From contig JAGWBQ010000010.1 of the NCBI GenBank assembly GCA_021295815.1, forward strand, positions 1-64,000: a stretch of DNA of 64,000 bases, written 5' to 3'. Source of the stretch: Gemmatimonadota bacterium. GTDB taxonomy: Bacteria > Gemmatimonadota > Gemmatimonadetes > Longimicrobiales > Gaopeijiaceae. Positions 7,205 through 52,642 of the stretch are shown here, one piece after another. Position 1 is the first letter of the stretch; each line of letters opens with the position of its first letter. The notes beneath the pieces were generated by a model that saw only the letters and a program-made list of their open reading frames with translations, ran no database searches and was not told where the DNA came from. The translations under genes were made by a program, and so were the position numbers.

Positions 7205-8340
7205 AACTGGTCGATGTCGGTGCCGGGAGTCCACGCGGGACGCTCGTCGGCGTTGGCGATCTCGACTCCGAGATAGAAGATCAGTCTGGCGAGACGGGCG
7301 CCCTTTTCGGCATCGATGCGGTCCGGCTCGTCGTCGCGCCCGTGATAGTCTTCGTGAGTGCCGTTAAAGAAGAAGAGAATGGGGACGCCCTTGCGCGCGA
7401 AGTGATAGTGGTCCGATCTGCAATAGAAATTCTGTTCCGGCCACAGGTCGTCTATGGGCGTCATCCCGAGCTCCGGGTGCGCGGCGCCCACCCTTTCGAG
7501 GGTCTGCCCCAAATCTGAGTGCTCCTTGCCGATCGCGACGATGGTGTCGGTCCAGTTGCGCCCCACCATGTCGGCGTTCAGGTTGGCCACCATGGACTCG
7601 GTCGGTACGGTCGGGTTCTCGCTGAACCACGCGGAGCCCCAGAGCCCCTTTTCCTCCCCGCTGACGAGGATGAAGAGCGAGGAGCGACGGGGAGCCCGGG
7701 GAAGCGCGGCTATGGCCTGGGCGATCTCCATCACCGCAACGGTGCCGGAGGCGTCGTCGTCGGCCCCGTTGTAGATCGAGTCGCCGGATGCGTCGGCTGT
7801 CCCGGTGCCGACGTGATCCATGTGCGCCGAGTAGACGACGTACTCGTCTGCGAGTTCGGGGTCGCTTCCCGGGACGATGCCGATGACGTTGGGAACCCGG
7901 ACGAGCTCCCCTGCATCGACATCCGGGCCCGGGTCGTCCCGCAAGGGGAAATAGGCGATCCGAGCCGGGACCGAGCCGTCGTCCAGGGTATCCGTGCCCG
8001 CCACCGGAATCCGTTGCAACGGATAGCGCTGGATGTAGCCGCCGTCCTCGGCTCCGCCCCTGATTCCCATGGCGGCGAACTCCGAAGCTATCCAGGCCGC
8101 GGTCGCTTCGAGCCCGGGGCTTGGGGTGTCGCGCCCGCTCATGGAGTCGTGAGCGATGACCCCGACCCGGTAGGCGAAGTCGGTTTCGGTGATGGTGGAG
8201 GCCACTTCGTCGAGGACGGCCGCGTCCGATCCCGGCTGGCAGGCGATGGCGGCCGAGACCGCGACCGATGCCGCAGCGCGTCCGAGGGCGCCGGGTCGGG
8301 ACGATCTGCCGCTAAGCGAGGGAGCGGATATCCGGGACAT
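7192..8340 (-). other. possible independent start: M28 peptidase lipoprotein
   Basis: Inside the longer frame, ATG at 8338-8340 is preceded by CACGGAGAGCC (GGAGAG, about 4 bases spacing) and opens MSRISAPSLSGRSSRPGALG followed by a hydrophobic run ending AAIAC, a usable lipobox. Translation from here gives a 382-residue secreted lipoprotein peptidase of normal M28 length, topologically sensible, whereas in the full fusion the same hydrophobic run would lie outside the membrane. No stop codon separates it from the anti-sigma part. Confidence 0.6.
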
Positions 8341-9853: not shown

Positions 9854-12171
9854 CCGCCCTCGCGGAACGCGCGCACGACCGCCGCGACCTCGGACGGATC
9901 GAGCTCCGGCCGGTCGAGGGCGCTCTCGGTGAAGCGCAGGCTCACGCCTACGCCGGCGATGGTCACTTCGGTCAACTCCTTCAGCACAGGCAGGATCTCG
10001 GGCAGGTCGCGGACCAGCGCGAACCAGGCGTCGCTGAAGTGCACGATCGTGACGGACTCGACGTCCTCTGCGTGGTGCACGTCCATCCAGACACCGTCTT
10101 CCTCCACGAAGCTGCGACCTCCGACCCGCCGCGCCGTTCCTGCAAATCCCGGGAGGGCGTGGCTCTCAACGGCCGCCGACATCACGACCAGGTTGTTGAG
10201 CGTCATCATCTCGGTCGCGCGACCTGCGGCTTCGACCGCCGCCTGTCCCGTCGCGTCCGAGCCCCGGGCCGCACCGGGCGTTCTCGGGACGCCGCCGGGA
10301 AGCATGGTCCGCCAATCGGGATCGATCGGGGCGTCGGTAACCACCACGCCCGGTTCGCGGACGAGGTAGGAGGTGTAGCGCGACGGAAGTCCGTAGCGAA
10401 GCGCCAAGGCCCGGATTTCCTCCAGCAGCTCCGGGGTCTCGCCTTCGGTCCACATCCTTCTCTCCAGGTGCCCGAGTTTCCGGGCCGCCCACAGACGCGG
10501 AATGAAGCCGTTGGCGGGTTCCGCCTCGGGGAAGACGAACTCGGTCTCGAACTCGAGTTCCTCCTGACCGCGGCGACCGGCTATCGATACCGAAGCCGGG
10601 CCGGAGCCCGAGAAGCGTCCGAAGAGAACGAGCTCCTGGCCGAGGAAGAGATCGGGAAGACGCGCGGGGTAGGAATCGGCGAACTCGACCGACGAGACGT
10701 TCACCTCAAGGTCCGTGAGAGCCGGATGCGAGACTCTCCGGGCCAGCTCTCCTACCGCTCGCTCCACGTTCTCTCCGGGTGCCACGTAGTCGGTTGCCCC
10801 TCTGCCGGCCTCGCCCAGACGATCGAGGAGATGGGTGTTGACGTCGTAACCGACCCCGAACGAGAAGATGCGGGTACGTCCCACCTTGCCCTCCACGCGG
10901 TCGGCGATGCGGGCCGGGGAGGTCTCGCCGTTGGTGGGCAGACCGTCGGTAAGGAAGACGACCACGGGAAGGCGATCCTCCGGGCTGACGATGCGGAGAG
11001 CCTCGTCGAGCGCTCCGCCGATGTCGGTGCCGCCGTTGGCCATGAGGCCGGCTATCCAGTCGCGGGCGCGATCGGTGGCCGCCCGGCTCCACGGCTCCCA
11101 GTCGTTGGAGTTAGTCATGACCCGGTTCGAGAAGGCGACCAGCCGGAAACGGTCGTCGGGTCCGAGGGAGTGGAGAAGTTGGACCAGGGCCCCCCGCGCC
11201 TGCTCGATCTTCGGACCGGCCATCGATCCCGAGATGTCGAGGACCGCCGTGACGTCCCGAGGAATCGATTCGGCGTCGGTGCTGCCGGGCGAGAGGGTGA
11301 GCATGAAGTAGCCGGCTTCGGTGGTCGGATGGTGGGTCGCGACGGTCACGCCCACGTACTCGTCGGCCAGCGGCAGGAAGAGAGCGAGCTTCCCGGCGCT
11401 GAAGTCGTTGACGTTCACGAAAAGATCGCCCCCCCGCCGTTCGACATCCAGCTCGTGGGTCGGAGAGAACGGATCGTGGAAGCGTTCCTCGTCCTCGACC
11501 CTGATGTGGAAGGAGGCGTCCACCGGCTCCGGCAGCGGCCGCAGCTCGACGTCTTCTCGGTCGGCCCGTCCCGCGCCAGGCTCGTCGCGCGTGCCGCGTC
11601 CGCTTCCGGGCATCGCGAAGCCCGGACTTCCGCCGCGAAGGGCACCGGCGTGTACGAGCCTGTATCCCGACCCCGAGCGAGCGAGGCGTTGGACATAGCG
11701 GATGGTGACCTTGCGTTCCTCTCCCGGACCGATGGGGAAGACTCGCGCTCGCAGAAGTCCGTGGCCGTGGTATTCGATAAGGGCGGGATCCTTCCTGCGG
11801 CGCACTATGCTCTCGTAGATCTCGCGCGCCTCGTCCGCGTCCATGATCTCGCCGCGAAGCTCCTCTTCGCCAAGGTAGAGGGAGAAGTCCTCGAAAACCG
11901 CCTCGCCCGGAATCGGGTAGAGGTAGTCGCCCTCCGCGACGCGAGCGCCGTCGTTCACGAACCACTCGGAAACGGTGACGTGGGCGAGGGACCCTTCCAC
12001 CATAACGTCCACTTCGCTGCGGACGCGGTCCACCGCGAACCCTCCGGCCAGGGGGGGAGGCTCGATCCAACCCTGAGCGTCCAGCGAAGAGGCCGGAAGC
12101 ACGGCGGCGAGGAGCGTGCCTGCAATCACGGCGAGGCGGCAGGAGTTTTCGGCGGGAGCGGTTCTGGTCAT
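9850..12171 (-). CDS. VIT and von Willebrand factor A domain protein, secreted
   Basis: A 773-residue protein. A signal peptide (CRLAVIAGTLLAAVLPASSLDAQ) leads into a VIT domain (SEVDVMVEGSLAHVTVSEWFVN, GDYLYPIPGEAVFEDFSLYLGEEELRGEI, EYHGHGLLRARVFPIGPGEER) and then a VWA domain with an intact MIDAS, DISGSMAG, and GGTDIGGAL and FLTDGLPTNGE further on. This is the inter-alpha-trypsin-inhibitor-like arrangement, presumed to bind partners through a metal ion on the cell surface. ATG at 12171 is chosen because AAGGAG lies 9 bases before it. First gene of the operon with the sigma/anti-sigma pair, hinting that its state may be linked to envelope signalling (inference). Confidence 0.88.
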   Translation of the reverse strand: MTRTAPAENSCRLAVIAGTLLAAVLPASSLDAQGWIEPPPLAGGFAVDRVRSEVDVMVEGSLAHVTVSEWFVNDGARVAEGDYLYPIPGEAVFEDFSLYLGEEELRGEIMDADEAREIYESIVRRRKDPALIEYHGHGLLRARVFPIGPGEERKVTIRYVQRLARSGSGYRLVHAGALRGGSPGFAMPGSGRGTRDEPGAGRADREDVELRPLPEPVDASFHIRVEDEERFHDPFSPTHELDVERRGGDLFVNVNDFSAGKLALFLPLADEYVGVTVATHHPTTEAGYFMLTLSPGSTDAESIPRDVTAVLDISGSMAGPKIEQARGALVQLLHSLGPDDRFRLVAFSNRVMTNSNDWEPWSRAATDRARDWIAGLMANGGTDIGGALDEALRIVSPEDRLPVVVFLTDGLPTNGETSPARIADRVEGKVGRTRIFSFGVGYDVNTHLLDRLGEAGRGATDYVAPGENVERAVGELARRVSHPALTDLEVNVSSVEFADSYPARLPDLFLGQELVLFGRFSGSGPASVSIAGRRGQEELEFETEFVFPEAEPANGFIPRLWAARKLGHLERRMWTEGETPELLEEIRALALRYGLPSRYTSYLVREPGVVVTDAPIDPDWRTMLPGGVPRTPGAARGSDATGQAAVEAAGRATEMMTLNNLVVMSAAVESHALPGFAGTARRVGGRSFVEEDGVWMDVHHAEDVESVTIVHFSDAWFALVRDLPEILPVLKELTEVTIAGVGVSLRFTESALDRPELDPSEVAAVVRAFREGG

Positions 12172-13573: not shown

Positions 13574-15283
13574 ATGTCACCTCGTCTCTCCCGCATCGCC
13601 ACCTTCGCCGTTCTCACCCTCACCGGCTGCGCCGTGGAGGAACGCCCCGGGGCCTCCGACGAGGCTGCGAGCTCGACGGTTCACTACGACCTGATAATCG
13701 AGGGAGGCTGGATCGTCGACGGCACCGGCAATGCGGCCTACCCCGGCGACGTGGCCGTCCTCGGAGACCGGATCGCGACCGTCACCGCTCCCGGCATGCT
13801 CGCCGAGGCCGTGGCGGCCACTCGCATAGACGCGAACGGCAGGATCGTGGCTCCCGGCTTCATCGACATCCAGAGCCACTCGCGCGGGAGCTTCGTCGGC
13901 GACGGCGACGGCCGGGTCGTCTCGAAGGTCACCATGGGCGTGACCACGGAGATCATGGGCGAGTCCACGAGCAACGGTCCCGTGACCGACTCGGTGCTCG
14001 TACAGGCTGGCGAAGACGCGGGCCGCACGGTCTTCTCCACCTTCGGCGATTGGATGGAGGCGATGGAGGAGCACGGCGCGAGCGTCAACTTCGGCTCCTT
14101 CGTAGGCGCGACCACCATCCGCATCTACGGCATGGGCCACGACATGGGCGCCGCAGGGCCGGAACAGCTCGAGCGGATGCGAGAAGCCGTGCGCGAGTCG
14201 ATGGAGGACGGCGCATTCGGCATCGGCTCCGCCCTGATCTACCCGCCTGGCAACTTCGCCTCCACCGAAGAGCTCGTCGCCATCAACGAGGCCGCCGCAC
14301 CCTACGGCGGCGTCTACATCACCCACCTCCGTTCGGAAGCGGACGGCTTGCTGGAGGCGATGGACGAGGCCATCCGCATCGGAGTTGAGGCGGGGGTGCC
14401 GGTGGAAATCTACCACCTCAAGGCCGCAGGACGGCGGAACTGGCACAAGGCCGCGCTGGCGGTGGCGAAGATCGATTCGGCCCGGGCGGCAGGCATTGAC
14501 GTCCAGGCCAACATGTACCCGTATACCGCCGGATCGACGGGACTCACCGCCTGCTTCCCGCCTTGGGCTTCGGCGGGGAACCGGCTTATGGAAAGGCTCG
14601 CCGATCCCGAAGAACGCGCACGCATAAGGGAGGAGATGGAGAACCCCAGCGGCACGTGGGAGGACCTCTGCGGTCTATCCACTCCCGAAGGGACCTTGAT
14701 CGTCGGCCTGGACAAGCCCGAGAACGAGCGCTACGTGGGCAGCTATCTCTCCGAGATCGCGGCGGACATGGGTAAGGACTGGATCGAGACCGCCTTCGAC
14801 CTCGTGGCGAGCGAGGAGCAGCGAGTGGGCACGGTCTACTTCATGATGAGCGAAGAGAACGTCGCCATGCAGATGGCACAGGAGTGGATGAAGTTCGGCA
14901 CCGACGCCGGCGGCTGGGACCCGGAGGGGGCCACCGGCCTGACCCACCCGCGGGCCTACGGCACGTTCTCGCGCATACTTGGGAGGTACGCGCGCGAAGA
15001 GGGCGTGCTCTCGCTCGAGGAAGCGGTGCGCAAGATGACCTCCGCCGTCGCCACCCGCATCGGGATCCGCGACCGGGGGCTCGTCGTGCCGGGCTACTTC
15101 GCCGACCTCGTGGTCTTCGATCCCGAGACCGTCGCGGACCACGCCACCTACACCGAGCCGCACCAGCTCTCCAGCGGAGTCGATCACGTCTTCGTGAACG
15201 GGGTGGCCGTGGTCGAGAACGGCGTACACACCGACGCCATGCCGGGCCGACCGGTCCGGGGGAGGGGGTGGAGGGGGCGGTAG
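13574..15283 (+). CDS. D-aminoacylase / N-acyl-D-amino-acid deacylase family amidohydrolase, lipoprotein
   Basis: A 569-residue amidohydrolase-superfamily enzyme with an N-terminal lipoprotein signal (IATFAVLTLTGC). It has the composite beta-sandwich start YDLIIEGGWIVDGTGNAAY, the barrel entry VAPGFIDIQSHSRGSF, VEIYHLKAAGRRNWHKA for later ligands, and the closing GLVVPGYFADLVVFDPETV. Family members cleave N-acyl-D-amino acids or related amides. The first metal motif reads QSHS instead of the usual HxH, so the metal site differs. ATG at 13574 starts the signal peptide. The last ~140 bases of the gene, with the promoter cassette behind it, are duplicated at 18388. Confidence 0.85.
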   Translation: MSPRLSRIATFAVLTLTGCAVEERPGASDEAASSTVHYDLIIEGGWIVDGTGNAAYPGDVAVLGDRIATVTAPGMLAEAVAATRIDANGRIVAPGFIDIQSHSRGSFVGDGDGRVVSKVTMGVTTEIMGESTSNGPVTDSVLVQAGEDAGRTVFSTFGDWMEAMEEHGASVNFGSFVGATTIRIYGMGHDMGAAGPEQLERMREAVRESMEDGAFGIGSALIYPPGNFASTEELVAINEAAAPYGGVYITHLRSEADGLLEAMDEAIRIGVEAGVPVEIYHLKAAGRRNWHKAALAVAKIDSARAAGIDVQANMYPYTAGSTGLTACFPPWASAGNRLMERLADPEERARIREEMENPSGTWEDLCGLSTPEGTLIVGLDKPENERYVGSYLSEIAADMGKDWIETAFDLVASEEQRVGTVYFMMSEENVAMQMAQEWMKFGTDAGGWDPEGATGLTHPRAYGTFSRILGRYAREEGVLSLEEAVRKMTSAVATRIGIRDRGLVVPGYFADLVVFDPETVADHATYTEPHQLSSGVDHVFVNGVAVVENGVHTDAMPGRPVRGRGWRGR

Positions 15284-15515
15284 GCGGTTCAGCGGTCGCT
15301 CGCCCGCGGACCGCGGATCACCCGAGCGTACGCCTCGGCATCAGAGCTGCATCGCATCATCCCGAAGCGCCTGCACGTGCCCGCCGAGGCGCATCCCCGT
15401 GCATGACACACCTCCGAAACGACGGCTCTTGACACCCGGGCGACACCCGCTATCTTGCTCGCCCTACGTCGCGATGGTCATCCCGACCTTCGAGACCGTC
15501 AATCACCTCTTGCTG
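15141..15515 (+). repeat. direct repeat copy 1 (D-aminoacylase 3' end plus promoter-leader cassette)
   Basis: This stretch reappears at 18388-18753 with a constant offset of 3247 bases, from the TACACCGA of the D-aminoacylase C-terminal region through its TAG stop, an untranslated spacer and the TTGACA/TATCTT promoter. By eye there are about a dozen mismatches over roughly 340 aligned bases and no indel until the end. The two copies bracket unit 1 of the propeller array. Confidence 0.85.
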
Positions 15516-15536
15516 GGCGAGCCGCCGGAGGACAGC
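15400..15536 (+). promoter_or_regulatory. promoter-leader cassette A
   Basis: A conserved upstream block (CATGACACACCTCCGAAAC) precedes TTGACA at 15429-15434, a 16-base spacer and TATCTT at 15451-15456, a near-consensus sigma-70-type promoter. The leader then shares GTCGCGATGGTCATCCCGAC with copies at 18655, 20470 and (reverse strand) 52320-52470. It ends at a strong ribosome site GGAGGA (15527-15532) before the leader peptide. The four copies precede different gene sets. Confidence 0.75.
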
Positions 15537-15614
15537 ATGAAATTCTTCACCGCCCCCCCCCTAAATGAGCTGACCGGTTGGCTCGACTGCGAGACCACCG
15601 GGGGGACCCAATAA
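15537..15614 (+). CDS. leader peptide A with poly-C tract (25 residues)
   Basis: ATG at 15537, five bases behind GGAGGA, encodes MKFFTAPPLNELTGWLDCET plus GGTQ. The run of nine C at 15553-15561 encodes the Pro residues. The stop TAA at 15612-15614 is two bases before the ATG of propeller A, so translation is likely coupled. The part up to NELTGWL matches what the leader of copy D would encode in another frame, where it would fuse to a signal peptide. Here the similarity ends after TGWL, as if the rest of a signal peptide had been replaced. Confidence 0.5.
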   Translation: MKFFTAPPLNELTGWLDCETTGGTQ

Positions 15615-15616
15615 GA

Positions 15617-16837
15617 ATGATGGAGCTTCCCTCGGTGCGTGTGTTCGTCGTCGAATTGACATTGATCGTAGGAGTAGTAACGGGAGATACTGTTCCTGTG
15701 CCGGCGCAGCAGGTTGTTGACCTGCCAGCGTTGGACCGCCCACTAGCAGTCGAATACAGGGAGTTGCAGCGATTCGGGGCCTTGACCCACGGATGGGATG
15801 CGTTCGCAAGAGTAAGCTCTGTGGCCTTTCTCTTAGACGGAGCGTTAGTAATAACTGATCTGCGAAGCCAAAGGGTGACGGTTGCGAATGTGATGACCGG
15901 TGAGCTCTTATCCGAAATATCCAAACAGGGTGACGGACCTGGTGAAATTCGCCAGATACATGACGTGCTGACTGCTCCCAATGGAATCACCGTGTACGAC
16001 AGAGGCAAGATGGCGTTTCAGGTCTACTCAATGAATGGAGAGCTTGAAAGTTACGTTCCCGTTGGTGTGGCGGCAAGGGAGTGGCTGTCGCCAGATCTCG
16101 TCGCGTCGTCTCAACACCTGGAGGTCATACACGTCCCCGAGGTCGTGTCTTACTCCACCCATCGTCCGATCATGCGGCTAACGCTCGATGGTGCAAGGAT
16201 GAAGAGCAGCCTGTGGGCTCATGCGTGGCGGTCTGGCGATCAAAGGAACGATAGCAACGACCAGTTTCGATGGGACCCGAGAACGGGTAGTTCAGGGCTC
16301 GACGCGTTCTATCCAGATTTGTATTTGGATGTGCTCCCTGACGGTAGCCTCCTAATGGTGGACTCGTCGGCCTATGAAATCAAGGTGGTCTCACCTGCTT
16401 CTGGGACCCTATCACGAATTATCCGTCGGCCGGTACCGCCTGTCAGGGTGACTGATGCGATAAGGGACGAGGAAAAAAGTCGTCGTCGTCGGGAGGCGGA
16501 CACAAGGGTCCCTCCCTCTCCTAGAGAGTTGATGGATGCTTACCTGGCGGCTATTGACGAGTTGGCGTTCTACCCCGAGCTGTCAGTCATCACTGCGATT
16601 CAAGCGAGCCGAGCGGGTGAGGTTTGGGTCCGTCGACGGTCATCGGTCGATCCGTTGGACGAGAACGGGCCGATCGATGTGATCTCCGCGAGTGGTGATT
16701 ACATGGGCACAATAGCCGCCTCGGATTTCGACATGCCGGCTGCTCTTGGTCCGCTTGGACTCGTGTCCTTTCTCGAGGTAGACGAACGCGGCGTCCAGAT
16801 CGTTGTCGTGGGGGAGCTCTTCCTGGAGGCCGGATGA
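15617..16837 (+). CDS. secreted 6-bladed beta-propeller protein A (low GC)
   Basis: A 406-residue exported protein: signal peptide (VRVFVVELTLIVGVVTGDTV, cleavage near PAQQ) then repeated propeller blades, with the family signature SKQGDGPGEIRQ near residue 100. Members of this 6-bladed beta-propeller family are exported and usually of unknown ligand; no catalytic residues are evident. Base composition is unlike its neighbours: 15661-15720 has 31 of 60 G+C and 15841-15900 has 30 of 60, against 40 of 60 in a sample line of the upstream gene. This suggests recent acquisition. The start is one of two adjacent ATGs. The following gene overlaps by four bases. Confidence 0.75.
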   Translation: MMELPSVRVFVVELTLIVGVVTGDTVPVPAQQVVDLPALDRPLAVEYRELQRFGALTHGWDAFARVSSVAFLLDGALVITDLRSQRVTVANVMTGELLSEISKQGDGPGEIRQIHDVLTAPNGITVYDRGKMAFQVYSMNGELESYVPVGVAAREWLSPDLVASSQHLEVIHVPEVVSYSTHRPIMRLTLDGARMKSSLWAHAWRSGDQRNDSNDQFRWDPRTGSSGLDAFYPDLYLDVLPDGSLLMVDSSAYEIKVVSPASGTLSRIIRRPVPPVRVTDAIRDEEKSRRRREADTRVPPSPRELMDAYLAAIDELAFYPELSVITAIQASRAGEVWVRRRSSVDPLDENGPIDVISASGDYMGTIAASDFDMPAALGPLGLVSFLEVDERGVQIVVVGELFLEAG

Positions 16838-17187
16838 CGAAGCGCAGGTCAACTTGGGTGTACAAGGCCGGACTTGTGGTGTGCGCCCTCTGGATCGTAC
16901 CCGTCGGTGCGTGGTCGACGCCGCTCAAGATGGTCGGCCCGGACTCGTGGGTGACGGTGCTGGAAACGGGCTCTCGACGACCGACAGGGTTGTGGGTGAT
17001 CGATCACCTTCGATCCAATCTCGGGATCGATGAACCCGTGGGTGACAGGAACGAGGCCTGGGGAGCCGCACTCGACGCATGTGTGTCCAATGGTACGCTT
17101 ACCCGGGTATCTCTCGGTAGCAAATGGACCTTCGATTGTGTACGCGAGCCCGCGAAGCGGGGCGACCCACTCACACCGGAAACGTGA
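16834..17187 (+). CDS. small secreted protein with two cysteines
   Basis: 117 residues, starting at an ATGA overlap with propeller A. The basic N-terminus MTKRRSTWVYKAGLVVCALW continues to a likely signal-peptide end near GAWS. The mature part is about 90 residues with two cysteines, in ALDACVSNGT and KWTFDCVRE, which could form one disulfide. It sits between two propeller genes, where other units carry longer small secreted proteins, but I see no sequence similarity to those. The stop TGA shares bases with the ATG of the next propeller (TGATG). Confidence 0.6.
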   Translation: MTKRRSTWVYKAGLVVCALWIVPVGAWSTPLKMVGPDSWVTVLETGSRRPTGLWVIDHLRSNLGIDEPVGDRNEAWGAALDACVSNGTLTRVSLGSKWTFDCVREPAKRGDPLTPET

Positions 17188-18308
17188 TGGCACCGAGGCT
17201 TGAGCGGAGTGCGTTCGCCCCCTGTGGTGGCTCTGATCGGTGGCGACGCCGTCGGCTCGGCTCAGCAGGTAGTCGAGGTCGACCACGACTCCGGGCGCGA
17301 TCGATCACCATTGGGTCCGAATCCGTGGCGTTGGACCGCATCGCGGGATGGATGTATGTTCAAGATGCTGCTGAAGATCCCGACGCTCTCATGGTGTTTT
17401 CGCTGGAGACCGGGGAGCGCGTGCGGACCATTTCCGTTCCTCGGGGTGGCGGCCCAGGGGAGCTCCCGGGAGGCTGGCTCGGCATCACGGCGGTACCGGG
17501 TGAGGGCGTCTTTGTCAAAGGGCACCATAAAGTCCTCGAATTCGATACCGCCGGGCAATTCATCTCCGCTTGGCACCCGAATGCCCCGGGAAGCACGGAT
17601 GTCTGCAATATCGGCGGACAGCCTGGTGTTCCGGTCCATAATGCCGTCTTGCAGCGAACGCCGGCGGGTGATCGAGGAATCGGTCCGCACTTCGTTCCCG
17701 GGAGACTGTCCGATCCGACCGGAGCTGTGTTTGTAGCGGACGTGGACTGTACGCAGGAGGTGGCGTACGTGCTGTCTCCGAATCTGGACGCGCCTTCGCT
17801 GAGGCGGGGTCAGGAGTCGAAGGTTTCAGATTACGAATCTCTGATCTCTCTGGTCGCATATTCGAGTTACCGCGAAACCGATATTCCCATTCCAAGCGAA
17901 TTGTTCGATTCGTCTGGCGGACCGCAAGGTCTATCTCTGGACGACCGTGGCAATCTCGTCCTACATTCTACATCTCGTAGCGTACCAGGCGGAATTGTCA
18001 GGCCAGACGGAGGGTGCTATGCGGTTGTTCGCACCGACGGTTCGGACAGACAGCACCAGTTCATGCGCGTGTACGCCGACAGCGCTCTGGTCTTCCGCCG
18101 GATCACGGACACGCGGGTCGTTGGCGGGAGAGAAACCAACATTATGTACTGGGACGCGGACGGCGTCTCGTTGCACCCGTTCCGCCATGTGAGCGGCGAT
18201 CCCTGTCCGGGCATCCTGCCCTCTTGGGATGAGGAGACCGGACGCGGCGAGGCCGAGTCCGCTCGGACCGACCAGCACGCCGAACCCGGGTCGGGCTGGA
18301 AAAGGTAG
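17187..18308 (+). CDS. 6-bladed beta-propeller protein c with scrambled signal peptide (two compensating frameshifts)
   Basis: The C-terminal ~300 residues (RGGGPGELPGGWLGI, GGCYAVVRTDG, YADSALVFRRITD, LHPFRHVSGDPCPGILPS) are clearly paralogous to the propeller at 50514-51671. The first ~40 residues in this frame are Arg-rich nonsense. The neighbouring frame over about 17217-17295 instead encodes PVVALIGGDAVGSAQQVVEV, matching the paralogue's signal peptide and AFAQQILEIDLGSG start. One extra C in the CCCCC run at ~17218 and one missing base near 17295 would explain this. As written, the protein would be made but not exported. ATG 17187 is coupled to the upstream stop. Confidence 0.7.
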   Translation: MAPRLERSAFAPCGGSDRWRRRRLGSAGSRGRPRLRARSITIGSESVALDRIAGWMYVQDAAEDPDALMVFSLETGERVRTISVPRGGGPGELPGGWLGITAVPGEGVFVKGHHKVLEFDTAGQFISAWHPNAPGSTDVCNIGGQPGVPVHNAVLQRTPAGDRGIGPHFVPGRLSDPTGAVFVADVDCTQEVAYVLSPNLDAPSLRRGQESKVSDYESLISLVAYSSYRETDIPIPSELFDSSGGPQGLSLDDRGNLVLHSTSRSVPGGIVRPDGGCYAVVRTDGSDRQHQFMRVYADSALVFRRITDTRVVGGRETNIMYWDADGVSLHPFRHVSGDPCPGILPSWDEETGRGEAESARTDQHAEPGSGWKR

Positions 18309-18331
18309 GGCAGGCAATCCCGACCCCCCCC

Positions 18332-18364
18332 CCGGTGGTCACGGTACCGCGCCGTGGTCACCGG
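18332..18364 (+). other. conserved 13-bp RNA hairpin, copy 1
   Basis: CCGGTGGTCACGG (18332-18344) can pair over 13 positions with CCGTGGTCACCGG (18352-18364), with two G-U wobbles and a 7-base loop. It begins 24 bases after the propeller c stop, just behind a run of ten C. A second copy at 20340 keeps all pairs despite base changes. There is no U-tract, so it may be a terminator-like or RNA-stabilising structure, not a classical intrinsic terminator. Confidence 0.55.
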
Positions 18365-18387
18365 GGCATGACTGCTACGAGACCCGC

Positions 18388-18530
18388 ACGCCCCCTACAC
18401 CGAACCGCACCAGGTCTCCAGCGGGGTCGATCACGTCTTCGTGAACGGGGTGGCCGTGATCGAGAACGGCGCGCACACCGACGCCATGCCGGGCCGACCG
18501 GTCCGGGGAAGGGGGTGGAGGGGGCGGTAG
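18388..18530 (+). pseudogene. duplicated 3' fragment of the D-aminoacylase-like gene
   Basis: Translates as YTEPHQVSSGVDHVFVNGVA and on to MPGRPVRGRGWRGR and TAG, nearly identical to the last 46 residues of the gene ending at 15283. It has no start and no upstream part. It travels with the promoter cassette as part of the ~370 bp direct repeat, marking the boundary of a duplication. Confidence 0.85.
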
Positions 18531-18753
18531 GCGGTTCGGCGGTCGCTCGCCCGCAGACCGCGGATCACCCGAGCGTACGCCTCCGCATCAGAGCTGCGTC
18601 GCATCATCCCGAAGCGCCTGCACGTGCCCGCCGAGGCGCATCTCCGTGCATGACACACCTCCGAAACCACGGCTCTTGACACCCGGGCGACACCCGCTAT
18701 CTTCCTCGCCTTACGTCGCGATGGCCATCCAGACCTCGCACTGTCACCACCTT
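18388..18753 (+). repeat. direct repeat copy 2
   Basis: Second copy of the 15141-15515 segment (offset 3247). Similarity ends in the leader just after CACCACCTT. Everything between the two copies is unit 1 of the propeller array. Confidence 0.85.
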
Positions 18754-18755
18754 GC
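18655..18755 (+). promoter_or_regulatory. promoter-leader cassette B
   Basis: TTGACA at 18676-18681, 16 bases, TATCTT at 18698-18703, inside the same conserved block as copy A. The leader diverges after ~18753, so the Shine-Dalgarno site and leader peptide of copies A and D are absent; a different small frame follows at 18825. Confidence 0.75.
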
Positions 18756-18824
18756 GAATGGCAGGGGAGCGCCTCCCCCTGGAATTACGCGTTCGCTAAA
18801 TTCCGGTACAACCCAGGAGGATAG

Positions 18825-18932
18825 GTGTCGCGCATGGCGGTTGCGGGATTCGTGATTTCCTTGGTGGCAATCGTTATTTCGGTGATCGAGCTTCGTGCCG
18901 GACGCAGGAAGCGGGAGAAGGGAGAAGGGTAG
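18825..18932 (+). CDS. putative 35-residue single-span membrane microprotein
   Basis: AGGAGG at 18815-18820 precedes GTG at 18825 (spacing 4) and an in-frame ATG at 18834. The frame encodes a 17-residue hydrophobic span (VAGFVISLVAIVISVIEL) followed by the basic tail RAGRRKREKGEG and TAG. This fits a one-pass inner-membrane microprotein, positive side in the cytoplasm. The stop is one base before a GTG that could start the next propeller, giving tight coupling. Too short for certainty and no homologue is known to me. Confidence 0.45.
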   Translation: MSRMAVAGFVISLVAIVISVIELRAGRRKREKGEG

Positions 18933-18933
18933 G

Positions 18934-20198
18934 GTGGTCCTACTTTGTTGGACAGTCCGAGGGCAAAGTCAAGGTGGATGCCGACTGGGGTTGAGAGCCC
19001 TCGGGGACCTGTGCAGAGCCGCCATTTCGGTGGCGGTTGTCTTGTTTCTGGGTACCGTGCCTTGTGCCAGCCAGCACACCGGGCCGACCCGGGCGATCGA
19101 CACTCAATTCACCGAGGTGTTCTGGATCGGTGACGAGGAATCGGAGCGGCAGTTCGGGGACGTTGCAGCGATGGAGTTCACCCCGGACGGCCGCCACCTT
19201 GTCGTGCTCGATAGGCTGGAATTCAGAGTTGTCGTGTACGACATGGAAGGTGCCGAGGTCGCGTCGTGGGGGCGTCAGGGCGATGGCCCCGGGGAGTTTA
19301 GACGCCCCCCTCGGGAGCTGGCCGTCTCCAGGGAAGGATTGATTGCGATCGGCTACTCGGGAAGCGCGGAGCTGTTCGACATCCATGGGAAACCGATCGA
19401 TACCCGTTCGTTCCGCGGACGCGGCGTTATCGGGATGTTCTTCGATGACCGAGAGCGGCTGCTGGTCGAGGCCGTTTCCCTGCGAGCCGTTTCTCTGGGA
19501 GAGGAACCGCCGTTGCAACTGATCCGTCTCGACGACGACGAGGTGCTATGGACGTCGAGACCCGTGCTCCACAAGCCGGGTGGGGTAAGGGTGCATCTTT
19601 ACGGTGCCGTCCCGATGATCGATCCCATTGGAGACAACCGCGTCGTGGTGGGACACACCGACCGCTACGATTTTGCCATCCTCGATGCCGGTACCGGACA
19701 GGAGGTGGGCAGGATCCGTCGGGAAGTGCCAGTCCGCGCTGTGACCGCAAACCACAGGAGGGCACGTATGGATCTCTATACCCATTTCAACGAAGTGACG
19801 TTCGCAGAATCCTTCCCCGTTGCTACCAGAGTGTTCGCTGGTCCTTCCGGTAGGTTGCTGTGGGTACGACGCGACATGGGGTGGGTGACGAGCTTGCTCC
19901 TCCGGTCGAGAGCATGATCGAGAGCCGGGAAAACCCGATCTGGCGACTTTACGACCTGTTCCGGTCGGACGGCGGCAATTACTATGGCACAGTGGAGGTT
20001 CCCGAGGGCTTCCTGCTCTTGGCGACAACTCCGGGATTCGTGGCGGGCGTTCACCGGGACGAATGGGGCCGCGAGTCCGTGCGCGTGTTTAGGGTCCGGG
20101 TTTCGATGGACGCTCCGCATCCCCGGGAGCCGATCGACGTGTCGACATCGCGATCGCGACCCGCAGCGACTGCACCGGCCGCGGTATCCCGACGTTGA
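18934..20198 (+). pseudogene. 6-bladed beta-propeller protein d, frameshifted in a poly-G run
   Basis: Very similar along its length to the intact propeller e at 21216-22382: RAAISVAVVLFLGTVPCASQ signal peptide, FTEVFWIGDEESERQFGDVA, RQGDGPGEFRRP, LDAGTGQEVGRI. Near 19877 this copy reads GGGGTGGG where e reads GGGGGTGGG; the missing G shifts the frame and ends the protein at 19917 (MGWVTSLLLRSRA). The remaining 105 residues (GDELAPPVESMIESRENP through SRPAATAPAAVSRR) continue in the next frame to 20198. GTG 18934 is chosen for its position behind GGAGAAGGG and the microprotein stop. Either decayed, phase-variable or a sequencing error. Confidence 0.8.
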
Positions 20199-20200
20199 CC

Positions 20201-20240
20201 ATGCCCCATCCTCGTGAAATCGATGCCGGCCGTCGCGTTG
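20201..20240 (+). pseudogene. remnant of the 5' end of a propeller f-like gene
   Basis: TTGACCATGCCCCATC and then GTGAAATCGATGCC follow the stop of propeller d, matching the TTGACCATGCCCATCATGAA junction between propellers e and f at 22380. The similarity fades within about 40 bases, so a second propeller gene once followed d and has been deleted. Confidence 0.45.
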
Positions 20241-20339
20241 GCTCCAATCGATGGCAATGCCGTCGGTCCTCTGCGGACAAGCAACACACTAAACCAGGTC
20301 GGGCAGGCTAGGCAGGACGGGGCCTCCGATAGACCCACC

Positions 20340-20373
20340 CCGGTGGTCATGGCTCACCCGCCGTGGTCACCGG
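20340..20373 (+). other. conserved 13-bp RNA hairpin, copy 2
   Basis: CCGGTGGTCATGG (20340-20352) pairs with CCGTGGTCACCGG (20361-20373) over 13 positions using G-U wobbles, with an 8-base loop. The C-to-T change relative to copy 1 keeps pairing (C-G becomes U-G). Flanking GGTCACCGGGGCA is also shared. It lies in the 450-base spacer between propeller d and the small secreted protein. Confidence 0.5.
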
Positions 20374-20469
20374 GGCACGGCTGCCGTGGTTCGGCTGGGC
20401 GAGGGACGGCCTACGCTGCCCCTCGCCTTCGATCCCGGTGCGCGGCCCCTGACCGAGACACATCCCTGT

Positions 20470-20600
20470 GCATGACACACGTCCGAAACGACGGCCCTTG
20501 ACACCCGGGCGACACCCGCTACCTTCGTCGCCTTACGTCGCGATGGTCATCCCGACCTCGCACTGTCACCACCTTTTACTTGGGCCTATGCCCCGGAGCA
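20470..20600 (+). promoter_or_regulatory. promoter-leader cassette C
   Basis: TTGACA at 20498-20503, 16 bases, TACCTT at 20520-20525, with the shared upstream block CATGACACACGTCCGAAAC. The leader retains TACTTGGGCC and CCGGAG, as in copy D, but the leader ATG has become ATC (ACATCCAGTTCTTG) and the poly-C tract is deleted. Confidence 0.75.
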
Positions 20601-20649
20601 AACATCCAGTTCTTGAGCCGGCTGGCTCATCCGGCCGATCCTGCTCGCC

Positions 20650-21219
20650 GTGGTCGCCCTCCTCCCGCTCATCGGCGCTCCCGCCGATGCCTCCTCCGCG
20701 ACCGTGCAGGACTTCCCGGCTACCGCAGCCGAGGTGGCCGGTCCTCCGCTCCCTGTCGGAGAAACCGTTCCACCGGTGTCTGATGCGATACCGGACCTCG
20801 CGACCGACGAGATGTCTTCAGTTCGCGGAACTTCGGTGGCCGTCGCGGATCATGCCGACGTAGCGCGTAGTTCTGGAGTGGTCCATCTTGGGCCGATGGC
20901 CGCCCGCAGGCTCCGTGGTTACCCGTTTGACGATGTGGTCGCCTTGGCGTCGGGTTGTGCGGCGCCGGACGCGGGTACCGGAAATACGGACCTGGGGTGG
21001 GCACCGTTACCCGGCGGTACTGCTGAGGCCTACGCTATGGACGCCGATCCATGTGACAAAGTCGAGGAAGCTATGATGGCCGCATGCATCGAGGCGGGCT
21101 TCATGCTTGGTGAATGGCAAGGCGGCAGAGCGACCGAAGAGGAATGGAAAAAGGCCAAGGCCCTGTGCGACGACCAATGGGATGTGTGGATGATACACTG
21201 TGAACTTTCACTCAATTGA
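20650..21219 (+). CDS. small secreted protein, conserved N-half and variable Cys-rich C-half (unit 3)
   Basis: 189 residues from GTG 20650; the reading frame reaches back through CTG 20641 (LLAVVALLPLIGAPADASSA), but the ancestral ATG is lost. Signal peptide ends near APADA. The next ~50 residues (VQDFPATAAEV, PPLPVGETVPPVSDA, VRGTSVAVAD) match the unit 4 protein at 51671-52270. The remainder is unrelated to it, helical and rich in Cys (SGCAAP, DADPCDKVEEAMMAACIEAG, KALCDDQWDVWMIHCELSLN). No enzyme motif. Translation start is doubtful because no ribosome site is visible. It is followed at once by propeller e. Confidence 0.6.
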   Translation: MVALLPLIGAPADASSATVQDFPATAAEVAGPPLPVGETVPPVSDAIPDLATDEMSSVRGTSVAVADHADVARSSGVVHLGPMAARRLRGYPFDDVVALASGCAAPDAGTGNTDLGWAPLPGGTAEAYAMDADPCDKVEEAMMAACIEAGFMLGEWQGGRATEEEWKKAKALCDDQWDVWMIHCELSLN

Positions 21220-22382
21220 TGGAAATGTTGTGCAGAGCCGCCATCTCGGCGGCGGTTGTCGTGTTTCTGGGTACCGTGCCTTGTGCTGGCCAGCACACCG
21301 GGTCGGCCCGGGCGATCGACGCTCAATTCACCGAGGTGTTTTGGATCGGTGACGAGGAATCGGAGCGGCAGTTCGGGGATGTTACCGCTATGGAGTTCAG
21401 CCCGGACGGCCGCCACCTTGTCGTGCTCGATAGGCTGGCATTCGGAATTGTCGTGTACGACATGGAGGGTGCCGAGGTCGCGTCGTGGGGACGTGAGGGC
21501 GATGGCCCCGGGGAGTTTAGAAACCGGCCTTTGCACCTGGCCGTCTCCGAAGAAGGAATGATTGCGGCCGGCACCGGCCGAAGCGCGGAGTTGTTCGACA
21601 TCAGCGGGGAACCGATCGAGACCCGTTCATTCCGTGGGCACACCGCTTTCGGGATGTCCTTCGACGACCGGGGGCGGCTGCTGGTCGAGGCCGTTTCCTG
21701 GCGAGAGACAGCGCCCGTCCAACTGATCCGCCTCGACGACGACGAGGTGCTTTGGACATCTAAACCCCTGATTCCCGCGCTGTCACCCGTGGTATACAGT
21801 GTCGGCCCCGTGATTGATCCTATCGGGAGCAACCGGATCGCGGTGGGAAACACCGACCGCTACGACTTTGCCATCCTCGATGCCGGTACCGGCCATGAGG
21901 TGGGCCGGATCGGTCGGAACGTACCGATCCGCGCTGTGACCGCAGACCACAGGAGGCGACTTAGCGATCGTCTCAGCAACTCCACCGAAGTGACTTTCGC
22001 TGACACCTTCCCCGTCGCCACAGAGGTGTTCGCCGGTCCTTCCGGTAGAATGCTGTGGGTACGGCGCGGCATGGGGGTGGGTGACGAGCTTGCTCCTCCG
22101 GTCGAGAGAATGGAAGACGCGATCTGGCGGCTTTACGACCTGTTCCGGTCGGACGGCGGCAACTACTATGGCACAGTGGAGGTTCCCGAGGACTTCCTGC
22201 TCTTGGCGACAACTCCTGGTCTCGTGGCGGGCGTTCACCGGGACGAACTGGCCCGTGAGTCCGTGCGCGTGTTTAGCGTCCGGGTTTCGATGGACGCTCC
22301 ACATCCCTGGGAGCCGATCGACGTTTCGACATCGCAATCGCGACCCGCAGCGGCTGCACCGGCCGCGGTATCCCGACGTTGA
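21216..22382 (+). CDS. secreted 6-bladed beta-propeller protein e
   Basis: 388 residues. It overlaps the stop of the small secreted protein by four bases at a TTGATG start region. Signal peptide RAAISAAVVVFLGTVPCAGQ, then blades with MEFSPDGRHLVVLDRLAFGI and the family signature REGDGPGEFRN at ~95-105, and later ASWGREG, FDISGEPIETRSFRGH, RYDFAILDAGTGHEVGRIGR. It is the intact homologue of the frameshifted propeller d, identical at most positions. Exported and presumably surface or periplasmic; ligand unknown. The Pro-Ala-rich C-terminus (RPAAAAPAAVSRR) is followed by the propeller f start within two bases. Confidence 0.75.
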   Translation: MMEMLCRAAISAAVVVFLGTVPCAGQHTGSARAIDAQFTEVFWIGDEESERQFGDVTAMEFSPDGRHLVVLDRLAFGIVVYDMEGAEVASWGREGDGPGEFRNRPLHLAVSEEGMIAAGTGRSAELFDISGEPIETRSFRGHTAFGMSFDDRGRLLVEAVSWRETAPVQLIRLDDDEVLWTSKPLIPALSPVVYSVGPVIDPIGSNRIAVGNTDRYDFAILDAGTGHEVGRIGRNVPIRAVTADHRRRLSDRLSNSTEVTFADTFPVATEVFAGPSGRMLWVRRGMGVGDELAPPVERMEDAIWRLYDLFRSDGGNYYGTVEVPEDFLLLATTPGLVAGVHRDELARESVRVFSVRVSMDAPHPWEPIDVSTSQSRPAAAAPAAVSRR

Positions 22383-22384
22383 CC

Positions 22385-23614
22385 ATGCCCATCATGAAAT
22401 CCGTGATTGCCGCAGCGTGCTTGACGCTTCTGGCGCCTTCCTTGATCAGGGCCGCGGTCGGAGAGCACGGCCTCATTCCACAAGCGCTCTCGGTCGACAC
22501 GACCGGGTCACATACCGTTGTGGTGACCGAACCCCTGCAACCGGACGCCGACGCTACCACTTGGCGCTTGGTCGAAGAGCTCAAGCTGGGTAACGTCGCG
22601 GGTGACGGACCGGACGGTTTCGGAGACCTCCGAGACCTTGCTGTAGACGGGATCGGGCGAATCTACCTGTTAGATGTAGCTGCGGAGGAAGTCCGAGTCT
22701 TCGGCCGGGATGGCGCCTACCTGGGGAGCATGGCTCGTGATGGTGACGGACCGGGCGAGTTCAGGTACCAGCGTTTCTCCGAACCGCGAATCACGTGGCG
22801 AACACCCGACCAGTTGTGGATCGGCGACGGCCAGCGGCATGTGGTGTTGGACACTCTCGGGCAAGAGTTGGCCCGATCCGCAAGCTGGCGTGGCTTTTTT
22901 TTGCCTGGCGAGTTCCCGACCTCAAGCAAGGTGATCGCCTCCGGAACCGACGGTTCCCTGTTCTCAGTCGTCGATGTGATCGCGATTCAGGGCCCTGACC
23001 AGGCCGTTGTTCCTTTACACACCTATGTCGTCCATTCGCCGGTCACCGCAGACCACGAGGTGCTCCCCGGTGACACCCTTGCGATAGAGACAAGGAACAC
23101 GGAGATGGGCGGAGGAGCGGAACCGCTTCAGGGTCGCGGTGGCAGCACGACTACACTTCAACGAATGCAGCCCCCGGAAGATCCACGGTTCGTGTGGACG
23201 GTCGAACGCCACGGAACGCTGTGGCTGGCGCACCGCTCGCGGTATCGCTTCGACAAACTGACGTTCGTGGGAGATACGGTCCTCACCGTGAAAATGGGGG
23301 AGATCCCGCCTCTGCCGAGTGCCGGGTCCGATTTCGCACCGGTTGTCGCGTCTCTCGCATCTTCACCGGAAGGGTGGCTATGGGTGGAGCGGCAGCATTC
23401 CACAACTGAAGAATCGACATGGGATGTGTTGGACAACTGTGGACGATACCGTGCGACGGTGACCGCCCCCGTTGGCCTGAGTAGGCCGGAGGTCGGTCAT
23501 GGAGGCGCGCTGTACGGAATCTCTTCCGACGAGCTGGGTGTCGATTTCGTCTACCGTTTTCGCCTTCAGGAGGAGGGCGGTGCGCAAGTTGCGCGAGAGA
23601 CCTGTCCTTTCTGA
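22385..23614 (+). CDS. secreted 6-bladed beta-propeller protein f
   Basis: 409 residues from ATG 22385 (a second ATG lies at 22394). Signal peptide MKSVIAAACLTLLAPSLIRA, then LRDLAVDGIGRIYLLDVAAEEVRVFG and the signature RDGDGPGEFRYQ. The C-terminal blades contain LDNCGRYRATVTAPVGL and ARETCPF, giving two cysteines. It is more distant from e than d is. Start is two bases after the stop of e, so it is translated from the same message, driven by cassette C. Function unknown. Confidence 0.75.
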   Translation: MPIMKSVIAAACLTLLAPSLIRAAVGEHGLIPQALSVDTTGSHTVVVTEPLQPDADATTWRLVEELKLGNVAGDGPDGFGDLRDLAVDGIGRIYLLDVAAEEVRVFGRDGAYLGSMARDGDGPGEFRYQRFSEPRITWRTPDQLWIGDGQRHVVLDTLGQELARSASWRGFFLPGEFPTSSKVIASGTDGSLFSVVDVIAIQGPDQAVVPLHTYVVHSPVTADHEVLPGDTLAIETRNTEMGGGAEPLQGRGGSTTTLQRMQPPEDPRFVWTVERHGTLWLAHRSRYRFDKLTFVGDTVLTVKMGEIPPLPSAGSDFAPVVASLASSPEGWLWVERQHSTTEESTWDVLDNCGRYRATVTAPVGLSRPEVGHGGALYGISSDELGVDFVYRFRLQEEGGAQVARETCPF

Positions 23615-50513: not shown

Positions 50514-51671
50514 TTACGAGGGACGCCGACGCTCCCGAACAACGATGTCGGTTTCGGTCGGGTCGGTGCCGGCCCCCAGAGCCGGGTCATTCTCGTGCTC
50601 AGACCGTTGGGACTCCGAGGTCAGTGACGGAAACATCCCCGGACAGGCCTCGCCGCTTATCCGCCGAATCGGGTGCAGTTTGACCAGGCCTGAGGTGTAG
50701 AGCACCGTCCGAGTCGGCCGGCCGTTCCGGACGGTATCCTCATAGTCCTTGTACAAGACCAAGGCGCTGTCCTCCACGATGCCTCCGAATGAGATGGTGG
50801 GATTCGGGTCGTTTATCCGTATCACCGCGTAGCAACCGCTCCGGGGGTCGATCACCGCGCCCGCGACTTCGAGGACAATTCCCCTGACCAGCACCAGGTT
50901 GCCGTGTCCGTCTCCTGCCAGGCGCAGTTTCCGATTCCACGGGACCCGGCCTTCGGCGAACTCGGACGGGGGAAGAATCTTTCCCTCCCCACCGTTCAGG
51001 CTGTAGCTGAACACCGTGTCCGCGGCATCCTCGAAGGCGGCCACGGTGTAGGCCGACTCGCCAATGCAGAACATCGAGGTAGGCCGACTGGTAACCTTAG
51101 CTACGATTTCCTGCACGGTCCCGTGGAAGGGGAGCGCCTCTCCCTGAACGACGCCGGCGCCAAGAATCTTGTCCCCCGAGCGACCCTTTCTGACCACTCC
51201 GCCCCACGACGGGACGGCAGGTGAACCGCCGAGGTCGCACACTGCGGAACCGCCACCCGGAACCACCGGCCGCCAAAAATCTTCGACGACCTGGCCCAGT
51301 GAGTCGAGGTGCAGAACCCGGCCGTCACCGAGGACGTACAGTCCTCCGGCGGATGCCTGCGACACCGCCCTGACCGTGCTGGGGAGTTCGCGCGGACCCT
51401 CGCCCTTCGGTATCCGTACCAGACGATCCGGTTCACCGGTAAGAAGCGAGAAACCCATGACGTCGTCCGGGTGCTCCAGGTCGACCGCGTACAGGAGGTC
51501 GCGTTCGTGGTCGACGAGGAAGCGCCCGCCGGGGAGAATGGCCCTCCACTCGTCGTTGATCACGTCCCTGCCGGAGCCGAGGTCGATCTCGAGAATCTGC
51601 TGGGCGAAGGCGGTCTCCCCGCCGGCAAGCACAGCGATGGCTCCCAAGACGGTTCTGGTCAGCAGGGTCAT
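50514..51671 (-). CDS. secreted 6-bladed beta-propeller protein g (unit 4)
   Basis: 385 residues from ATG 51671, which shares a base with the stop of the small secreted protein upstream (TGATG). Signal peptide LTRTVLGAIAVLAGGETAFA, mature start QQILEIDLGSGRD, signature PKGEGPRELPS, and C-terminal SGCYAVIRIND, VEDSALVLYKDYED, LHPIRRISGEACPGMFPS. It is the intact paralogue of propeller c (17187-18308) in unit 1, although on the opposite strand and 33 kb away. Ligand unknown. Confidence 0.78.
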   Translation of the reverse strand: MTLLTRTVLGAIAVLAGGETAFAQQILEIDLGSGRDVINDEWRAILPGGRFLVDHERDLLYAVDLEHPDDVMGFSLLTGEPDRLVRIPKGEGPRELPSTVRAVSQASAGGLYVLGDGRVLHLDSLGQVVEDFWRPVVPGGGSAVCDLGGSPAVPSWGGVVRKGRSGDKILGAGVVQGEALPFHGTVQEIVAKVTSRPTSMFCIGESAYTVAAFEDAADTVFSYSLNGGEGKILPPSEFAEGRVPWNRKLRLAGDGHGNLVLVRGIVLEVAGAVIDPRSGCYAVIRINDPNPTISFGGIVEDSALVLYKDYEDTVRNGRPTRTVLYTSGLVKLHPIRRISGEACPGMFPSLTSESQRSEHENDPALGAGTDPTETDIVVRERRRPS

Positions 51672-52270
51672 CAGGTCACTTGGACGACGGGGTAGGCAAT
51701 CCAACCACAGTAACCGTAGTCGCATACGAGCACCTGAAATGACAACGAGGGGCCGATCGTGAAGGGCCCGATGGTGATCCCGACCGAGACGACAGTGACC
51801 AAGTGTTGATCCTGTAGATAGCACGTGTGCTCGTAATCCATCCCTTCACCACTCATGGCGGCCAGATCAAACCACATCCAGAAGTCGACATTTGCCAGAC
51901 TCTTCTCTTCCTCGCATACCCCCAAGCTGGAGGCCAGAGCAGCGCTTCCGGTTGTCGTTGCCTTGAAAGCGTGGGGCGCGGCACCGGCAGACTCTGTGTC
52001 AGAAACCTCAACGTCGTCACGGGCATCAATGTCACGGACATCGGCGCACACCGCAGGAGCCACATCCACGACGGCCACCGCAGTTCCGCGAGCGGGAGCA
52101 ATCCCGCCGGGCAGCAAGCCCAGCGTCGCATCAGAGACCGGTGGGATGGCCTCGTCGACCGCGAGCGGAGGATCGGTGAACCGGGCGGTGACCCGGTGGT
52201 CCTGCACGGCTGCGGAGAAGGCATCGGCGGGAGCGCCGATGAGCGGGAGGAGGGCGATCACGGCGAGCAT
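51671..52270 (-). CDS. small secreted protein, conserved N-half and variable C-half (unit 4)
   Basis: 199 residues from ATG 52270: LAVIALLPLIGAPADAFSA signal peptide, then VQDHRVTARFTDPPLAVDEA, IPPVSDA and RGTAVAVVD, matching the unit 3 protein at 20650. The C-terminal ~110 residues are different: beta-rich, with Cys in LGVCEEEKS, EHTCYLQD and VLVCDYGYCGW. The conserved upstream leader (52294-52329) stops out of frame; one more C in its ten-base poly-C run would fuse leader and this protein into one longer signal peptide. Followed directly by propeller g. Confidence 0.65.
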   Translation of the reverse strand: MLAVIALLPLIGAPADAFSAAVQDHRVTARFTDPPLAVDEAIPPVSDATLGLLPGGIAPARGTAVAVVDVAPAVCADVRDIDARDDVEVSDTESAGAAPHAFKATTTGSAALASSLGVCEEEKSLANVDFWMWFDLAAMSGEGMDYEHTCYLQDQHLVTVVSVGITIGPFTIGPSLSFQVLVCDYGYCGWIAYPVVQVT

Positions 52271-52293
52271 GATCGGACGGATGAGCCAGCCGG

Positions 52294-52329
52294 TCAGCTC
52301 ATTTGCGGGGGGGGGGCGAAAAATTGCAT
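52294..52329 (-). CDS. leader peptide D with ten-base poly-C tract
   Basis: ATG 52329 behind GGGAGATGAC encodes MQFFAPPPQMS and stops at TGA 52294. The C-run occupies 52307-52316 (G on the plus strand). With eight or eleven C the frame continues through NELTGWLIRPIMLAVIALLP into the secreted protein. Copy A has nine C but a two-base difference after the run, leaving NELTGWL in frame. Confidence 0.5.
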   Translation of the reverse strand: MQFFAPPPQMS

Positions 52330-52475
52330 GTCATCTCCCGGGCATTCGGCCCAAGCAGAAGGTGGTGACGGTTCGAAGGTCGGGATGACCATCGAAATTG
52401 CCGCGAGGATCGTAACAGGTTCTCTCCAGAGTGGCAAGAGCCGTGGTTTCGGATGTGTGCCGTATGCCGTAAACG
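52330..52475 (-). promoter_or_regulatory. promoter-leader cassette D
   Basis: Most diverged copy. The upstream block CACACATCCGAAACCACGG and TTGCCA (52437-52432), 17 bases, TACGAT (52414-52409), then the leader ATGGTCATCCCGACCTTCG and CACCACCTTCTGCTTGGGC shared with copies A and C. It drives unit 4 on the minus strand. Confidence 0.65.
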
Positions 52476-52642
52476 AAAGGGGTGGTCCTTCGATCTGCAC
52501 CGCGCGCCAGGACTCGTCCGTCGGCCGCGCAACAGCACCAAAGCGCAGGGGCACACGACGGCCCCCATCCAAGATCATACCATCCTTCGACTACGACGCC
52601 CCCTTGACGTCCGGCTCGCCGGATCGTTTCCTTTACTTGAGC

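Follow-up and report, generated by a model that had tools for sequence, protein, structure and literature searches.

A 64,000-nucleotide stretch of a Gemmatimonadota genome (contig JAGWBQ010000010.1 of assembly GCA_021295815.1; hereafter the window) carries a tandem array of exported beta-propeller genes accompanied by genes for small secreted proteins. The small proteins are of two unrelated types, and each type stands with its own kind of propeller, which suggests that they are dedicated partner proteins at the symbiont surface. On balance, the array probably consists of cognate pairs of co-exported proteins that act outside the cytoplasm. The genome (2.47 Mb, 35 contigs, 96% complete) represents the sole species of its genus among the genomes compared, and three of its other contigs, termed C9, C13 and C24, hold related genes. 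Propellers in the window are lettered A and c to g and sorted, with those elsewhere, into types P1 to P4; leader copies and their units are numbered U1 to U4. Signal peptides of small proteins and propellers were judged by eye from their N-termini. The genes of the array are the following.

15617-16837, plus strand: propeller A, P3 type, exported, with a weak DUF5128 (PF17170) match above the gathering score
16834-17187, plus strand: small secreted open reading frame (ORF) of 117 residues in the partner position before c, without a family match and fitting neither partner type
17188-18308, plus strand: propeller c, P1 type, frame-broken near 17298; 71% identical to a P1 copy on C24, with the match divided between two frames
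18979-20198, plus strand: propeller d, P2 type, frame-broken at about 19878
20192-20375, plus strand: P1 propeller remnant, a 5' part of 64 nt (83%) and a 3' part of 110 nt (86%) with about 1 kb deleted
20641-21219, plus strand: small secreted protein, type 2 partner, with the shared N-terminal region and a twin C-x10-C domain (CDKVEEAMMAAC ... CDDQWDVWMIHC)
21219-22382, plus strand: propeller e, P2 type, whose start codon overlaps the small-protein stop codon (TGATG)
22385-23614, plus strand: propeller f, P3-like, a member of the exported-propeller array
51671-52270, minus strand: small secreted protein, type 1 partner, with the shared N-terminal region and a C-terminal domain ending CDYGYCG
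50514-51671, minus strand: propeller g, P1 type, with an all-beta propeller AlphaFold2 model (mean pLDDT 81)

Pairing of small proteins with propellers

The pairing was counted by profile searches of 121 whole genomes of the family. The type 1 profile yielded 20 hits in 10 genomes, 18 of them directly followed by a P1 propeller; the other two hits are weak (E 4e-5 over 28 residues, and E 8e-4). Five hits (L193-L197) fall outside the profile seeds, and all five precede P1. The seven strong hits of the type 2 profile are, without exception, followed by P2; its two weak hits are a cross-match to a type 1 protein and a match inside a long unrelated frame. Neither type 1 with P2 nor type 2 with P1 occurs among the strong hits in these genomes. 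A six-frame scan for strict C-x-[YF]-G-x-C-G C-termini found 14 distinct loci; in each, the motif ends a small ORF that lies immediately before P1, and at one locus (L120) the type 1 ORF precedes the first of two tandem P1 genes. Upstream of most P2 relatives lies a small secreted protein with two C-x10-C pairs, or the remnant of one. Both pairs can also be found together, as on contig L089 (G116, metagenome-assembled genome (MAG) SB0672_bin_21), where type 2, P2, type 1 and P1 follow in series. The pairing is kept between genera at 35-40% propeller identity.

Within the window, the genes overlap at four junctions, in line with the earlier note: as ATGA at 16834 and as TGATG at 17185, 21217 and 51673.

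Two small secreted families behind a common N-terminus

In alignment, type 1 proteins share five invariant cysteines and the C-terminus C-x-[YF]-G-x-C-G, and type 2 proteins four invariant cysteines in two C-x10-C pairs, the spacing of 10 being held in nearly all members. The two window proteins, of type 2 (20641-21219, unit U3) and type 1 (52270-51671, unit U4), are 58% identical over about 73 N-terminal residues. The U3 protein also matches a type 1 protein on C24 at 65% over about 100 N-terminal residues before the two diverge. Taken together, the N-terminal parts of the U3, U4 and C24 proteins are 57-65% identical over 61-100 residues and their C-terminal domains differ. Because a common N-terminus is joined to two C-terminal families, each fitting the downstream propeller, this is a domain swap and not random variation. 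The shared N-terminus of the earlier note is thus borne out, and what it took for variable C-termini resolves into two propeller-matched families. Its expectation of homologues beyond this contig holds as well, since both families occur in other genomes directly before the matching propellers.

For the type 1 core (residues 49-110 of the L117 protein), the model is an antiparallel beta meander of four strands, with pLDDT above 90 and no PDB match at E <= 0.001. Neither family has a match in Pfam or NCBIfam, where the U3 and U4 proteins and five relatives were compared, or by PDB sequence search, and seven proteins gave none among the PADLOC anti-phage defence models. These searches thus gave no match that would place the proteins in the NVEALA, toxin or defence families. 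Type 1 is narrowly spread: among 394 sampled genomes of the class, it occurs in only 2 of 143 genera. Separately, locus L198 (G118:C2) has a small secreted protein of a different kind, with four cysteines, ahead of an apparent secreted PDZ-domain protein, possibly another kind of pair.

Propeller types, spread and fold

In the window's own genome, P1 comprises g, c and two C24 copies. Its relatives occupy 58 loci in GTDB genomes, nearly all of which are Gemmatimonadota MAGs named after sponge studies. Ircinia sponges are the source of the jk18x MAGs (PMC9531527), and we infer a sponge origin of the RHO, COS, APA and SB MAGs via PMC8163846. One P1-carrying record, L102 (VYDD01000390), is titled Gammaproteobacteria. 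Its P1 propeller and type 1 partner remnant are nearly identical to the Gemmatimonadota versions, which points to mis-binning or recent transfer. Relatives of the P2 propellers e and d are present in 11 of the 121 family genomes.

Gene A scores 24.1 bits against PF17170 (DUF5128), over the curated cut-off of 22.9, and gene f comes close to the gathering score. The P1 propellers g and c match no Pfam family, PF17170 included, and g matches no NCBIfam family. PF17170 also matches in a Bacteroides control genome, and DUF5128-type genes number 17 in the window's genome and 70 in G024, a genome of another genus. The AlphaFold2 model of P1 is all-beta (mean pLDDT 81, about 24 strands) and has 549 PDB matches at E <= 0.001, headed by kelch, NHL and SMP-30 propellers. 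The predicted structure is thus a beta-propeller, a circular array of four-stranded blades; at TM-scores of 0.4-0.6, the matches do not fix the exact blade count.

The promoter and leader block

Each of the four window units is headed by a repeated promoter block of about 120-200 nt. The claim was made in the earlier note, and sequence identity confirms it for all four. The three plus-strand blocks (15380-15489, 18627-18753 and 20453-20575) are 91-95% identical to one another, and the minus-strand block (52480-52283) is 75% identical to them. A 31-mer of the leader core occurs 3 times against 0.00 expected by chance, and a perfect TTGACA with TATCTT 16 nt on is found in two window blocks. The leaders are laid out as follows.

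15380-15614, plus strand: leader U1, with promoter (TTGACA at 15429, TATCTT at 15456), Shine-Dalgarno sequence (SD), short ORF 15537-15614 (MKFFTAPPLNELTGWLDCETTGGTQ) and a 9-C tract at 15553-15561
18627-18753, plus strand: leader U2, promoter part, with a 32-residue membrane peptide ORF (18834-18932) downstream
20453-20690, plus strand: leader U3, with promoter and a degenerate leader, poly-C tract lost, start codon uncertain
52284-52480, minus strand: leader U4, with a 10-C tract (52307-52316) between SD/ATG and signal peptide, frame off by one

At least five more copies lie outside the window (three on C24, one each on C13 and C9). Copies free of assembly-gap cuts have a promoter-like TTG[AC]CA with a T-rich partner hexamer, and in most of them the start region reads ATG-x-x-TTTTTC-poly-C. 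The earlier note had proposed its own test, that the cassette should precede propellers, and all nine copies found in the genome do lie before a propeller gene, whether intact, broken or reduced to a remnant; those behind the C9 and C13 leaders are one remnant and one gene truncated by the contig end. On C24 (L041), N-run assembly gaps at about 7260-7570 and 10010-10330 fall exactly on leader copies, so the cassette probably has more copies than were counted.

Leader DNA was compared against 97 relatives, which gave no strong match and only two matches of 27-30 nt; the idea of a widespread mobile element was rejected on this ground. An RNA element was set aside as well, the block holding a sigma-70 promoter and protein start sites. 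Apart from one homologous leader in another genus, that of G024, the leader DNA is restricted to this genome.

The poly-C tract and reading frame

Behind the conserved ATG, the tract varies among the paralogues and G024 in makeup (9 C, 10 C, 8 C-T-8 C, 21 C). In U4 (10 C) and on C13 (8 C, T, 8 C) the ORF from this ATG misses the frame of the signal peptide by one base. On C9 and in U1 (9 C) the frame is kept, although the U1 ORF stops after 25 codons. On C24 the conserved leader start runs straight into P4 propellers. The leader in G024 (G024:C1, L229, about 3813440, minus strand; MRNLPPPPPPPLNELSTYLWA...) has a 21-C run directly after the start codon, in frame, and its gene encodes a 227-residue secreted protein followed by a DUF5128 propeller of the C13 type.

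This arrangement suggests slippage-controlled export of the small protein, and the tract itself hints at phase variation. Runs of 9-10 C occur in the window at chance frequency and are not rarer than chance, and a leader-pattern search of the family turned up nothing further but chance-like sites in two other genomes. With runs of at least 9 C at chance frequency in the window, phase variation was not accepted as proven. A bolder scheme, in which the post-start poly-C of the conserved M..[FL]PPP-x-NEL leader toggles small-protein export and interchangeable partner domains match the downstream propellers, would give the symbiont switchable host-facing pairs, a phase-variable combinatorial system that we consider unlikely.

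Duplication and decay of the array

The amidohydrolase gene upstream contributes its 3' end to a 300-nt repeat (15140-15439 and 18387-18686, 95% identity). As the repeat takes in this gene end, unit 2 is a segmental duplicate of unit 1. Part of the array is pseudogenised and decaying. The propeller genes of the array and fourth unit described in the earlier note (A, c, d, e, f and the gene at 50514-51671) are all present; c and d are frame-broken, and the deleted P1 copy between d and the third unit comes in addition. Propellers d and e differ by an indel at about 19878, where d has G4 and e has G5. C24 also holds damaged genes: one small protein there no longer has a signal peptide, and the reading frame of one propeller breaks close to its end. 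Some of these defects could be assembly errors, which is not easily said of the deletion of about 1 kb in P1.

The 32-residue membrane peptide ORF at 18834-18932 (MAVAGFVISLVAIVISVIELRAGRRKREKGEG) has a good SD and lies ahead of propeller d; a similar peptide, with a transmembrane segment and RRKKKPDK, stands before a P2-like propeller at locus L171 of genome G021. After the P1 copies there is a 16-bp inverted repeat (CCCCGGTGGTCACGG...CCGTGGTCACCGGGG; window 18330-18366 and 20349-20384), and the one after c does not fold with unusual stability (z = -1.5).

Probable cognate partners and the alternatives

Four findings argue for stoichiometric cognate partners outside the cytoplasm: stop and start codons overlap, both proteins have signal peptides, the types match from genus to genus, and partner domains have been swapped. 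Each pair would then comprise a small, presumably disulfide-bonded secreted protein followed by a type-matched secreted beta-propeller, usually translationally coupled to it, with type 1 proteins serving P1 propellers and type 2 proteins serving P2. Both would be exported by Sec, the small protein would dock on the propeller encoded next to it, and the complex may act, perhaps as a binding or adhesion/ligand module, either in the periplasm or on the cell surface of a host-associated (sponge-type) bacterium. The repertoire changes as whole units are duplicated, as partner domains are exchanged behind a single promoter and N-terminal region, and as genes are lost. Several observations weigh against this reading. 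The small partner is present at only about 16 of the 58 P1 loci, and since many P1 genes lack one, the propeller can exist alone; propellers A and f likewise have no recognised small partner. Congruence between partner and propeller trees is significant over all 12 pairs (r = 0.76) and not significant over the 9 non-redundant pairs (r = 0.34, 354 of 5000 permutations). Seeds of both profiles were picked beside propellers, so the unbiased part of the census is the absence of strong hits elsewhere together with the five out-of-sample hits.

The non-significant congruence test on non-redundant pairs, the evident segmental duplication and the frequent pseudogenes would all fit mere operon hitch-hiking, in which adjacency comes from shared descent of a duplicating segment without a functional link. 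This is improbable in our estimation, as the pairing outlasts divergence between genera, every strong small-protein hit in the 121 genomes has a propeller of its own type beside it, stop codons run into start codons, and in the swapped U3, U4 and C24 proteins the C-terminal domain tracks the propeller while the shared N-terminus does not. Toxin-immunity pairs, akin to bacteriocins, are also rather improbable; here the small cysteine protein would be a diffusible antagonist that the propeller binds and neutralises, with orphan propellers as extra immunity. Small, variable, cysteine-bearing secreted proteins with a common N-terminus and a type-matched downstream neighbour would suit such a system, as would the many orphan propellers, the duplication and the decay, but no toxin or defence family was matched, both proteins bear signal peptides in a constant gene order, and neither the twin C-x10-C nor the beta-meander core is recognisable as a toxin. 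NVEALA peptides of Bacteroidota are small secreted peptides encoded next to 6-bladed propellers, and the array might be a new lineage of that arrangement. Its anatomy of a small exported cysteine protein adjoining a DUF5128-like propeller agrees, and PF17170 matches both the Bacteroides control and, 17 to 70 times, these genomes. However, PF17170 does not match the P1 propellers and neither small family matches Pfam or NCBIfam, so we hold this origin to be doubtful; the likeness to NVEALA peptides drawn in the earlier note finds no link through these models for the U3 and U4 proteins and five relatives. The same note's broader description of a distinct, modular exported system is upheld, the modules being the type-matched pairs.

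In host-associated Gemmatimonadota, two small secreted families without a database match thus go with one propeller type each, and these type-matched proteins are concrete partner candidates for some of the abundant propellers that have no known function. Should the pairs bind, such propellers would be partner-dependent modules and not generic repeat proteins, and the tandem arrays could be read as a repertoire for contact between symbiont and host or between symbionts.

Comparison with known systems

The leader resembles mononucleotide-tract contingency loci in placing a poly-C between the start codon and the remainder of the gene. It differs in that no length variation was observed, with one genome per species covered and tract lengths compared among paralogues, and in that 9-10 C runs are at chance level in the window. 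To NVEALA peptides the likeness is that of a small exported cysteine protein adjoining a propeller gene; the cysteine patterns differ, the bacterium belongs to Gemmatimonadota, no Pfam or NCBIfam model matches, and no NVEAL-type motif was seen after the signal peptide in the type 1 and type 2 alignments, where no dedicated scan was made. DUF5128 (PF17170) propellers are exported like those of the array, with A passing the gathering score and f close to it, whereas P1 is matched by neither Pfam nor NCBIfam and the type-matched small partner lies outside the family definition. Type 2 proteins recall eukaryotic twin CX9C/CHCH proteins in their two C-xn-C pairs with about 10 residues between cysteines and, to judge from sequence, a helical look. 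They are, however, bacterial and secreted, and searches of Pfam, NCBIfam and the PDB found no sequence relation.

Sponge symbionts carry eukaryotic-like repeat proteins, among them NHL and WD40 (PMC9531527, PMC8163846). The array propellers resemble these in fold, the P1 matches including NHL, kelch and SMP-30. Unlike them, they lack an NHL or WD40 family match (one is sub-threshold) and come with a dedicated small partner gene.

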